Below are positions 7,629-48,033 of a DNA stretch of 56,386 bases, in pieces. The stretch is from Candidatus Gastranaerophilales bacterium (lineage in GTDB: Bacteria; Cyanobacteriota; Vampirovibrionia; Gastranaerophilales; Gastranaerophilaceae), in the NCBI GenBank assembly GCA_944325515.1, contig CALVAO010000014.1, positions 1 through 56,386 on the forward strand. The letters are read 5' to 3'. Position numbers and translations under genes: made by a program. The notes under the pieces were generated by a model that searched no databases, was not told where the DNA came from, and saw only the letters and a program-made list of their open reading frames with translations. The number at the start of each line of letters is the position of its first letter. Position 1 is the first letter of the stretch.

Positions 7629-7648
7629 TACTAAGTTAAAATTTAAAC

Positions 7649-7684
7649 AAAAGCCGCAGAGTAAATAAATACTCTGCGGCTTTT
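7649..7684 (+). terminator. Intrinsic terminator after rpmB
   Basis: A perfect 15-bp stem (arms 7649-7663 and 7670-7684, core GCCGCAGAGTA/TACTCTGCGGC) with a 6-nt loop ends in TTTTGTT. It is symmetric, with A-rich and T-rich ends. Confidence 0.9.
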
Positions 7685-7689
7685 GTTAA

Positions 7690-7756
7690 GTTTTGTAACA
7701 AAATTTTATCTTTGTGAAATTCATTACTTTTTAAATACTTTTTATATATGTAAGAT
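7690..7756 (+). promoter_or_regulatory. Three-block upstream element, copy A
   Basis: Three blocks lie before the 98-aa gene: GTTTTGTAACAAA at 7690, TTTGTGAAAT at 7711 and ACTTTTTATATATGTAAGAT at 7737-7756. The same blocks with the same 21- and 26-nt offsets occur at 27558-27624. The third block contains TATATATG followed by TAAGAT and ends 24 nt before the ATG, so it probably holds the -10 region. The two upstream blocks may be activator or sigma contacts. Confidence 0.65.
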
Positions 7757-7779: not shown

Positions 7780-8076
7780 ATGTCAACTAATATTAATGCA
7801 AATGTTCTAAAAAACTTTATAGTAGATACTATAGGTTCTACAAAATTAACTGCTTCTCAAGCTCAGAAGTATGATATTGATGCCGATAAATATACAGAGG
7901 CTAATAAAGATGAAAATACATATCTTGAACTCGATGAAATATTAGAAGATTCAGATTTGTATGAACAGTTTGCAACAATGTATGTTGAAGAACAAGATAA
8001 AGAAGCGTCTGTAGACGCAGAGAAAGAGAAAGAAGAAGAGGCTAAAGTAAAAGAGAAAAATGAGAGCGGAGTATAA
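7780..8076 (+). CDS. Small acidic protein, unknown function
   Basis: A 98-residue protein that I do not recognise. The first 65 residues look folded (ANVLKNFIVDTIGSTKLTASQAQKYDID) and the last 33 are a charged E/K-rich helix. There is no signal peptide, membrane segment or cysteine. AAGGAG lies 9 nt before the ATG, and a terminator follows, so it is a single-gene unit. The upstream region shares a three-block element with the unrelated 147-aa gene at 27644, which suggests common control. Real coding is supported by the ribosome site, promoter element and terminator. Confidence 0.7.
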   Translation: MSTNINANVLKNFIVDTIGSTKLTASQAQKYDIDADKYTEANKDENTYLELDEILEDSDLYEQFATMYVEEQDKEASVDAEKEKEEEAKVKEKNESGV

Positions 8077-8104
8077 GAAAATAATTTTAATAAGGTAATT
8101 TATA

Positions 8105-8126
8105 CGGGACCACGGTCCCGTTTTTT
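8105..8126 (+). terminator. Intrinsic terminator after the 98-aa gene
   Basis: The 7-bp arms CGGGACC/GGTCCCG are followed by TTTTTT at 8121-8126. It lies 28 nt after the stop codon at 8076. Confidence 0.85.
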
Positions 8127-27124: not shown

Positions 27125-27240
27125 ACTATAAAAAACTTTATTTAGCAATAATATTAAAGGTTTCGGATTATATTGCTTTATTTATTTCTTAACATTTCTT
27201 TACATTTTATTCTAAAAAGGCAATTTTTTTAAAATGAAAT

Positions 27241-27258
27241 ACTTTATATATACATAAG
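27241..27258 (+). promoter_or_regulatory. Weak third copy of the shared -10-type block
   Basis: ACTTTATATATACATAAG lies 21 nt before the ATG of the 67-aa gene. It resembles the third block of copies A and B with one deletion and two substitutions. The two upstream blocks are not recognisable here. Confidence 0.35.
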
Positions 27259-27278
27259 AAGTTTAAAAGGATGAAATA

Positions 27279-27482
27279 ATGAAAGAAGAAGAATTAAATG
27301 CAACAATGTCAGTTATAGCAGATCCAATAAACAATGTATATAAATTGGAATCACGCTCAGATATAGAAGAAATCCAACGTATTTGCAGAATTTTTGCAAT
27401 TGCCGAAAAACAGGCTAATAAGCATAAAATGCTTTCAATAAAGAATTTGGCAACATTTAGGCTTGTTTTAAGTAATAACTAA
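27279..27482 (+). CDS. Small protein of unknown function
   Basis: A 67-residue protein that I do not recognise. It is polar and probably helical (RSDIEEIQRICRIFAIAEKQANKHKM), with one cysteine and no signal peptide. AAAAGGATG lies shortly before the ATG, and an intrinsic terminator follows about 20 nt after the stop, so it is a single-gene unit. It sits next to another small orphan gene, and the upstream region shares the last promoter-like block. Coding is supported by ribosome site and terminator only. Confidence 0.6.
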   Translation: MKEEELNATMSVIADPINNVYKLESRSDIEEIQRICRIFAIAEKQANKHKMLSIKNLATFRLVLSNN

Positions 27483-27530: not shown

Positions 27531-27557
27531 GCACGCATTTTGCATGCATTTTGTAAA

Positions 27558-27624
27558 GTTTTGTAACAAATATATAAATTTGTGAAATTTCCTAAATTAA
27601 AAAAACTTTTTATATATGTAAGAT
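27558..27624 (+). promoter_or_regulatory. Three-block upstream element, copy B
   Basis: GTTTTGTAACAAA at 27558, TTTGTGAAAT at 27579 and ACTTTTTATATATGTAAGAT at 27605-27624 repeat the blocks and the exact 21- and 26-nt offsets of copy A. The sequence between the blocks differs. It ends 20 nt before the ATG of the 147-aa gene. Confidence 0.65.
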
Positions 27625-27643: not shown

Positions 27644-28087
27644 ATGGCAAACACAGCAGCTTTATTAGGAAATTTATTAAACACTAACGCAGACATTAAC
27701 TATTATACCCAGCAGTCTATTTATTGGAATGCTAAGTATGAAGCTAACCATGCTAAGTTAGAAAAACAAGTTAAATATGAAGAAAAATGGGAAAGCGCCT
27801 TTGACTCAGCTATTGATAACACAAAAGATATTAGTGCATACATAAACGGTACCAAGATGGTTATTAAAGAAGGCAATACAAACGAAATGCTTGCAGATCA
27901 ATATGCACATGCAAAAGTTGACCAATATAATGAAGAATTATCATTAGAACTTGCTGACTTAGATATGGAATATGATACTATGAAAACAATGTACGATACA
28001 ATGCTTGAAGAATTAAGAGCACAGCAGGAATCCGAAAAGACTGCTACTTCTACAGCTGCTCAAGACACAGGCTTATTACAAGCATAA
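27644..28087 (+). CDS. Small coiled-coil protein of unknown function
   Basis: A 147-residue protein that I do not recognise. It is predominantly helical with charged heptad-like stretches (YEANHAKLEKQVKYEEKWESAF; LSLELADLDMEYDTMKTMYDTMLEELRAQQE), and it has small-residue N- and C-termini (MANTAALLGNLLNTNAD; TSTAAQDTGLLQA). There is no signal peptide, cysteine or membrane segment. The shape recalls export-apparatus helper or secreted filament proteins, but there is no specific match. AAGGTATAAGAAG precedes the ATG. The upstream element is shared with the 98-aa gene at 7780. It converges with folD. Confidence 0.7.
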   Translation: MANTAALLGNLLNTNADINYYTQQSIYWNAKYEANHAKLEKQVKYEEKWESAFDSAIDNTKDISAYINGTKMVIKEGNTNEMLADQYAHAKVDQYNEELSLELADLDMEYDTMKTMYDTMLEELRAQQESEKTATSTAAQDTGLLQA

Positions 28088-39100: not shown

Positions 39101-39499
39101 AGATACAATAACACGTTCTGCACCATTTACAATAAACGTACCTTTATCTGTCATGGTCGGAATATCACCGATATAGACTTCTTGTTCCTTAATTTCACCG
39201 CTGTCACGGTTAACAAGCCTTACCATAACGCGGAGCTGTTTTGCATATGTAGCGTCATGTATGCGGGCTTCTTCAACTGTGTACTTTGCATTATCAAACG
39301 TGTAGTTTGGAAGGAAATGAAGCTCCAATCTTCCCGTATAATCTTTTACAGGAGAAAAAGCCAATAATTCTTCTTTAAGCCCTTCTTTTAAAAACCATTC
39401 AAATGATTTTTTCTGCACGTCAATTAAATCCGGTAAATCGTCCAAACGTGTATTAGGAATACCCATTGGCGTTACTCTTTTTGCATATTCTGTCGACAT
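36185..39499 (-). CDS. rpoB: RNA polymerase subunit beta
   Basis: The second-largest subunit of RNA polymerase, 1104 residues, close to the cyanobacterial size of about 1100 and well below E. coli (1342), lacking the large E. coli insertions. Conserved blocks include the rifampicin region [80 protein letters not shown] and [33 protein letters not shown] precedes the ATG. rplJ and rplL, usually just upstream, are not here; the gene upstream is a small exported protein. Confidence 0.98.
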
Positions 39500-39609: not shown

Positions 39610-39738
39610 CATCAAAAATTAACGTCAAGTTAATAAGGGTATAATGTACAATTTTTCAACCCTTTTGTTTACAAAAATTTACAAAAGACTTCAAAATTTT
39701 AAATTTAATATCACAAAGGTTCCTGTTACTAAAATAAA

Positions 39739-46751: not shown

Positions 46752-46768
46752 CTTAAAAGTATAGCACA
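46752..46768. repeat. 17-nt direct repeat, right copy
   Basis: An exact copy of 46592-46608 in the same orientation, placed one base after the palindromic element. Confidence 0.75.
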
Positions 46769-46845
46769 TTATTACAAATTCGTTACATAAAAGCAATTTT
46801 ATACTTAAATTTGTTTTTATATAAATAATGCATGAAAGGTAAAAA

Positions 46846-48033
46846 ATGGTTAATGGAATAAATTTTAATAGTATTACCTATACTCTTCCTTTTAAAACTA
46901 CAGAAAAAAGCTCTGTAGTTTCTAAGCCTGTTGAGCTTCAAAACAAAAACTTAAATGGTCTGGATGCTTTAGGGAATTATAACTCGACATTAGCAATGCA
47001 GCCTCCGGATTTTGATATACCTATACTTAAACCTGTAGAAATTCCTCGAGACATAAACAATATTAAGGGGGAAAGAATTTATTCTTCTGACGGCAAACTC
47101 GTTCAAATCGTTGATGAAGATGCGAATTTTAAAAAAGTATATCTACTTGGAGAACATGGAATAAGGTACTCAGTAACAGATAAAAATATAAATAAGGACG
47201 TTTTTAGCCAAATACATTGGTATGATAACAATGAGATTATGCTTGAGAGTTATAATCCTCAAAATGGGTATAAATACTCTACATTTTATGAAAACAATGA
47301 ACTTCTGAATTATTATAAATTAAAAGAATTTAGCAATGGAAGCTCTATAACAGTTAATTATGATAACAGAGAACAGTTATATGATTATGAAGTTTTTGAT
47401 GCACAAACATCCTGCATAACAATGAAAAGATATAATAAAGAGAAACAATTGATTGACAAATGCATAAAAAAATATGATGAAACAACTAATTCTAAACTTC
47501 AAACTAACTATATAGGAACAGAAGCAGTTTCAGAAGAGTATACTCAAACAAACTCAATTAAAAATAATATTGCAGAGAAAATTCTAAATGATAATGATTT
47601 AAAACCAATTCCCAAAATTGAGTACCCAACTGATTTAAATAAAATACAAGGTAAAAAGACATATTATTCAGACGGGACTGTAGAAAGCGTAGTAACACCG
47701 GATAATGTAAAATATACTTATGATTTAGGTGAAAATCTTATGACTATTAAAAATAAGAATAAGAAAATTCATCATTATCTGGATAATAATTGGTACAGTA
47801 TAGAAGAAAAAATCAATGACAATGAATGCAAGACGACAATTTACCATCCGAACGGCGACATATCTGTTTCTTGTCAAAAAAATGATAATGAAAAAAGAAT
47901 TATACTAACCAATGGAAAAATAAGTCATTATGAAGAAACCATTGATGGTGAATGTGAAAAAATTATAGCATTTGATAAAAACGGAAATGCAATGAAAGAA
48001 TTTGACAATGTCCAAGACTATAACAATTTATAA
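46846..48033 (+). CDS. Orphan protein with an internal duplication
   Basis: A 395-residue protein that I do not recognise. Two halves are related: PILKPVEIPRDINNIKGERIY then SSDGKLVQIV, and PIPKIEYPTDLNKIQGKKTYY then SDGTVESVV. Each is followed by short beta-strand repeats with Asn-Gly and Asp-Gly turns (DKNGNAMKEF, HPNGDIS), reminiscent of YD- or MORN-like beta repeats. There is no signal peptide. GAAAGG precedes the ATG. The gene is bracketed by two copies of a palindromic repeat element, so it may have moved or been acquired as a unit. The AT-rich codon use matches its neighbours. Confidence 0.65.
   Translation: MVNGINFNSITYTLPFKTTEKSSVVSKPVELQNKNLNGLDALGNYNSTLAMQPPDFDIPILKPVEIPRDINNIKGERIYSSDGKLVQIVDEDANFKKVYLLGEHGIRYSVTDKNINKDVFSQIHWYDNNEIMLESYNPQNGYKYSTFYENNELLNYYKLKEFSNGSSITVNYDNREQLYDYEVFDAQTSCITMKRYNKEKQLIDKCIKKYDETTNSKLQTNYIGTEAVSEEYTQTNSIKNNIAEKILNDNDLKPIPKIEYPTDLNKIQGKKTYYSDGTVESVVTPDNVKYTYDLGENLMTIKNKNKKIHHYLDNNWYSIEEKINDNECKTTIYHPNGDISVSCQKNDNEKRIILTNGKISHYEETIDGECEKIIAFDKNGNAMKEFDNVQDYNNL

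Follow-up and report, generated by a model that had tools for sequence, protein, structure and literature searches.

The cyanobacterial light/redox regulator RpaB is a response regulator of the OmpR type. It binds the HLR1 site, KTTACAWW-N2-KTTACAWW, from which it activates transcription when the site lies at about -66 to -45 and represses it when the site overlaps the transcription start (PMC13421787). In Synechocystis it acts jointly with the small RNA PsrR1 (PMC6202907). Homologs of RpaA, RpaB and NblS were reported in Melainabacteria in 2013 as regulators of light and circadian responses that have no evident task there and perhaps serve another function (PMC3787301), and are also described in PMC4040986 and PMC5877343; the NblS kinase is reported in two of these studies (PMC3787301, PMC4040986). 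Here we describe a three-block element from a bacterium of the order Gastranaerophilales whose first block matches HLR1, and compare it with the cyanobacterial system.

The DNA analysed, called the window below, is a stretch of 56,386 nucleotides. The sequence-only reading had noticed three blocks before a 98-aa gene (7780..8076, plus strand) and again before a 147-aa gene (27644..28087, plus strand), and took them for a promoter class read by a specific sigma factor or activator that might control an undescribed regulon of small proteins. Re-reading the sequence placed the blocks where it had put them, at 7690, 7711 and 7737 and at 27558, 27579 and 27605, with identical offsets of 21 and 26 nt in both copies and with inter-block sequence that differs, being conserved neither within the genome nor between species. 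All three blocks in this arrangement are found exactly twice in the window, and 100 shuffled versions contain none. A window-wide profile scan gave E-values of 8.5e-18 and 4.8e-16 for the two copies, both of which are among the 11 sequences used to build the profile, and found nothing else comparable. The element is longer than first described. It begins with TGTWAAG at 7684 and 27552, so that block 1 makes up one half of a tandem site of 17 nt. Within block 2 the conserved core, kept in copies and orthologs, reads TGAAATT (7715..7721 and 27583..27589, plus strand), and the first letters of block 3, ATACTTT, begin at 7735 and 27603. This last block, ATACTTTTTATATATGTAAGAT at 7735..7756 and AAACTTTTTATATATGTAAGAT at 27603..27624 (both plus strand), is predicted to hold a -10-like element and probably the start region. 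From the end of the element to the start codon there are 23 nt for the 98-aa gene and 19 nt for the 147-aa gene. On the same strand, the terminator hairpin of the gene preceding the 98-aa gene (7646..7687, 18 pairs) extends to the start of the element, and another terminator-like hairpin lies 3' of the 98-aa gene (8104..8121), so that its transcription unit is probably monocistronic.

The element recurs throughout the 2.1-Mb genome, in which the two-block pattern, allowing up to 3 mismatches, was matched 17 times and its reversed form 2 times, and the block 3 core has 19 matches against 0 in the reversed control. Eleven own-genome copies align without gaps over 74 nt, with TGAAAT of block 2 invariant in all of them. 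A sequence-only profile search found 21 copies at E<=1e-3; these E-values are rough, and the matches to the 11 training copies are built into the profile. Random positions or places inside genes would have spoken against a promoter, and most copies instead lie 5-34 nt ahead of a start codon or of a short transcript bounded by a terminator and are oriented toward it, a few weaker ones having a longer leader or no clear gene. We refer to these copies as class A. A profile search of related genomes detected class A in 34 of 34 members of the genus, with 14-36 copies each, and 1-8 copies per genome in other families of the order; it was absent from the one genome searched from outside the order.

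Many near-identical copies per genome would also be expected of a dispersed duplicated repeat or a mobile element. To separate the element from the way it was found, relatives of the 98-aa and 147-aa proteins were gathered by protein similarity, so the promoter played no part in their selection; the loci were placed by tblastn and their upstream regions scored with a matrix made from own-genome copies only. The element lies 18-29 nt before the ATG in 20/20 orthologs of the 98-aa gene and 21/21 of the 147-aa gene (each count includes the window's own gene, and one further ortholog was lost to a contig end). It scores 48-85 bits, compared with at most about 11 bits for the best site elsewhere in the same loci. 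Positions conserved in both ortholog sets are TGTWAAG..TGTAACA, TGAAATT and ATACTTTATATATATGTAAGAT, TGAAAT being at least 90% conserved. Since every ortholog carries the element before its ATG, it is almost certainly a promoter class with a regulon. A duplicated repeat, which we rejected and consider hardly credible, is contradicted by this test: the sequences between the blocks and at the flanks are unrelated and diverge while the spacing is kept across the genus, and the orientation toward the gene is constant. The earlier claims of a promoter class and of an undescribed regulon, made up mostly of small lineage-specific proteins, thus hold up in placement, fixed spacing and conservation across the genome, the genus and the orthologs.

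Block 1 forms the latter half of TGTWAAGTTTTGTAACA, which is the reverse complement of the cyanobacterial site HLR1 (KTTACAWWNNKTTACAWW); by its sequence it is an HLR1-type box, a known kind of site. Upstream of the 147-aa gene (27550..27568, plus strand) the match to the consensus is exact, the minus strand at 27550-27567 reading KTTACAWWNNKTTACAWW, and upstream of the 98-aa gene (TGTTAAG-TTT-TGTAACA, 7684..7700, plus strand) there is one mismatch, TTAACA instead of TTTACA. Only some class A copies carry an exact HLR1; many, including the 98-aa promoter, have TGTTAAG with its one mismatch. Across the genome the exact HLR1 consensus has 51 matches and its reversed control 1, an excess of about 50-fold, and four genomes of the genus together have 187 against 7 in the control, with enrichment in the whole family. 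The sites were intergenic in 29/30 cases checked, in contrast to 16/120 control positions (104/120 controls lay inside ORFs). One further exact site in the window (39668..39685, plus strand) lies about 170 nt upstream of rpoB, which starts at 39499 on the minus strand. The genome also encodes RpaB itself, scoring 355.5 bits with NF045944 (NCBI curated cut-off 330), with 70% identity to a Synechococcus RpaB and a near-identical recognition helix in which DTRVVDVHISRLRSKLE is the same in both proteins. The sequences most closely related to this RpaB come from Gastranaerophilales and Vampirovibrio. A literature search joining HLR1 with Gastranaerophilales found no paper among those covered; what is new is the HLR1 identity of block 1, RpaB itself having been reported from these bacteria before, with no role assigned.

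The same box could be read by another OmpR-type regulator, of which the genome has two (NF045944 208 and 199 bits, far under the cut-off), or by a dimer that recognises a palindrome, TGTTA-N7-TAACA. Indeed the outer arms TGTTA...TAACA of block 1 can be read in this way, as in the TGTTAAGTTTTGTAACA variant with its inverted TGTTA/TAACA arms, and in a sister promoter class described below the site is inverted with its distance to the core unchanged. We consider this unlikely, because the TGTAAAG variant keeps the direct repeat and breaks the palindrome, the cyanobacterial direct-repeat consensus is the one enriched about 50-fold over its control, and the recognition helices of both paralogs are altered and unlike that of RpaB. 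RpaB is retained here as the likely regulator of class A promoters.

Ten of the 30 HLR1 sites outside class A precede textbook sigma-28 promoters (TAAAGTTTT...GCCG), which we call class C; the sigma-28 pattern occurs in 0.5% of random 75-nt windows. In 9/10 the promoter begins exactly 17 nt after the box, and all lie on the same side (L139, L149, L153, L156, L157, L159, L160, L162, L163 and L164; the gap in L160 is 28 nt), an apparent joint RpaB and sigma-28 regulon at ten loci. In class A GAAAT begins 16 nt past the box, giving a common same-side offset in which HLR1 is followed after 16-17 nt by GAAAT or TAAAG. GAAA is then separated from ATACTTTATA by 15 nt. Given this shared 15-nt spacer (GAAA-ATACTTTATA, TAAA-GCCG) and the near-equal distance to the box, the two predicted promoter classes have a common architecture but differ in their recognition sequences. 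In class A, block 2 resembles a -35 element and block 3, after the 15-nt spacer, a -10/start element, and the pair appears to serve a non-principal sigma factor.

The genome encodes eight sigma-70-family proteins, among which are several of group 1/2, a FliA/WhiG sigma that scores over the TIGR02479 cut-off and a SigF/SigB-like group 3 sigma (L044) that falls under the cut-offs. Class A, with GAAA-N15-ATACTTTATA, does not fit the sigma-28 pattern TAAA-N15-GCCGATAA, and the cyanobacterial SigF core TAGGC...GGTAA is not found in the class A consensus. A SigF reading by way of GGCAA was rejected, the published -12 element being GGTAA (PMC2758279). We also rejected an ordinary sigma-70 promoter: a scan for TTGACA- and TATAAT-like hexamers 16-18 nt apart gave no site overlapping either window element. 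The principal sigma might still read a poor, activator-dependent promoter with TACTTT or TATATA as its -10, an arrangement compatible with RpaB control. TACTTT fits the TAnnnT pattern and there are several group 1/2 sigma factors to choose from; this is a serious alternative that we nevertheless hold to be less probable than its opposite. Against it, conservation over the long ATACTTTATATATATGTAAGAT is much tighter than in a sigma-70 -10, another locus of the genome (L072) does show a TATAAT promoter, neither element overlaps a sigma-70-like site, and the 15-nt spacer is that of the sigma-28 promoters found beside other HLR1 sites. For a sigma factor dedicated to class A promoters we judge the chances to be about even. 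Of the earlier proposal of a specific sigma factor or activator, a candidate activator site has been found, and the specific sigma factor is so far only inferred.

A further set of promoters, class B, has the box inverted, as far from the core as in class A, with GGCAATTTTT in place of TGAAATT. Such a flipped box is unusual for a head-to-tail dimer and counts against the RpaB reading. More than 30 matches to class B reach E<=1e-3, and some of these overlap with class A matches. The window contains one at 27185..27259 (plus strand; a TTAACATTTCTTTACA box in the other orientation, AAAGGCAATTTTT and ATACTTTATATATACATAAGA), upstream of a 67-aa ORF (27279..27482, plus strand); its E-value with model R2 is 2.4e-17, the site being itself among the six training copies. 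A weak class B-like promoter (TTACAAATTCGTTACAT ... AAAGCAATTTT, 46765..46827, plus strand) with an E-value of only 0.012 lies upstream of a 395-aa ORF at 46846. With classes A, B and C, at least three predicted promoter types in this genome carry an HLR1 box. An HLR1-type box is apparently common to divergent promoters at G000:C5:67126-67243 and G000:C8:85809-85929. At the former a class B promoter of a 95-aa gene lies on one side and a TATAAT promoter before a glycosyltransferase-like gene on the other, and the 95-aa genes of the two sites have the same sequence over the part compared. Class B promoters also stand before each of two paralogous 80-aa genes (L084 and L096) and upstream of two CopG-like genes (L086 and L087).

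The products encoded downstream of class A are mostly without a Pfam family, and a Pfam search of the 98-aa and 147-aa proteins gave no family over the cut-off. The predicted model of the 98-aa protein (pLDDT 79) shows an EF-hand-like pair and, at the C-terminus, an acidic helix; it has no significant match in the PDB and a weak resemblance to EF-hand proteins at E>0.3. The predicted model of the 147-aa protein (pLDDT 93) combines a long helical hairpin and a beta hairpin, without a significant fold match in the PDB, the best being Vipp1/PspA at E 0.02 with a low TM. Other class A copies, including the best-scoring one of the genome, precede C-rich predicted transcripts, about 80 or 125 nt long and closed by a terminator, which look like small RNAs. 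The ~80-nt family occurs in five species with differing downstream sequence (L005, at G000:C6 from about 12345, L114, L119, L129 and L132) and has an unpaired AATCCCTAAATCCCTTCCTAA stretch followed by a GCTTCTC/GAGAAG terminator. Two copies of the ~125-nt family (CCTTTCATACAACCTACACACTAACCTTCTACACATGAGGAATT and a terminator) lie behind class A-like promoters (L007, at G000:C1 from about 167051, and L029, at G000:C3 from about 162193), as does a third similar transcript (L030, at G000:C4 from about 38212). An Rfam search of these transcripts returned no family, the sole match being a nearby tRNA. In a 57-aa gene family behind class A (L013, L121 and L122) the leader is roughly 100-230 nt long and differs in sequence between species.

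Taken together, the best explanation is probably a composite RpaB/HLR1 promoter used with a non-housekeeping sigma factor. TGTWAAG and block 1 would form a tandem HLR1-type operator for RpaB, which would presumably be phosphorylated by an NblS-like kinase. Block 2 (TGAAATT) would act as a -35-like element and block 3 (ATACTTTATATATATGTAAGAT), 15 nt past GAAA, as a -10-like element with the start region. The box would lie at about -67 to -50 provided that the start, itself predicted, falls within block 3, and RpaB bound some 50-67 nt upstream of the start would have the spacing of activation in cyanobacteria. It may then aid RNA polymerase carrying a non-housekeeping sigma factor, the output being short units that encode small proteins specific to the lineage, along with small RNAs. 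The element, its fixed geometry, conservation and position before genes, the RpaB gene and the enrichment of HLR1 are observed; we infer that RpaB binds and that it activates instead of repressing, and likewise where transcription starts and which kind of sigma factor is used. RpaB could instead bind and repress, the genes being released once it leaves, as cyanobacterial RpaB does repress from start-overlapping sites (PMC13421787). This appears improbable, a shade more so than control by a different regulator, since, relative to the predicted start, the box lies far enough upstream to occupy the activation position, and it directly precedes sigma-28 promoters with a constant gap. Returning to activation, a broader proposal, to which we give an even chance, is that RpaB serves as master activator for a large regulon specific to the lineage, comprising small RNAs as well as small proteins with predicted helical and EF-hand-like folds, and that it acts through promoters of an undescribed alternative sigma specificity (GMAA-N15-ATACTTTATA) beside sigma-28 promoters of like architecture.

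The HLR1 match hints at the possible targets of RpaB in gut relatives of cyanobacteria that no longer use light. It gives RpaB a concrete and testable candidate regulon in non-photosynthetic bacteria, which bears on the question of whether the regulator predates photosynthesis, and the class A signature gives a strong, recognisable handle on small RNAs and uncharacterised genes that are co-regulated in gut bacteria, a largely uncultured group. Compared with RpaB-HLR1 of Synechocystis PCC 6803 and Synechococcus PCC 7942, the system described here has an orthologous regulator with a near-identical recognition helix, the same 18-bp tandem site, a predicted upstream placement like that of the activating sites at -66 to -45, and small RNAs among its apparent targets, which recalls PsrR1 (PMC6202907). 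It differs in that the Gastranaerophilales host has no photosynthesis, the apparent targets are lineage-specific small proteins and RNAs without a known family, the site is often TGTTAAG/TGTAACA, and it is coupled to promoter elements that fit none of the sigma-70, sigma-28 and SigF patterns compared here. With cyanobacterial SigF-type promoters (TAGGC ... GGTAA) the likeness lies in the SigF/SigB-like sigma (L044) encoded here, whereas the published core (PMC2758279) is absent from class A. With sigma-28 (FliA/WhiG) promoters, TAAA-N15-GCCGATAA, class A shares the 15-nt spacer and nearly the same distance to HLR1, and it differs from them in having TGAAAT as its -35 and ATACTTTATA rather than GCCGATAA as its -10.
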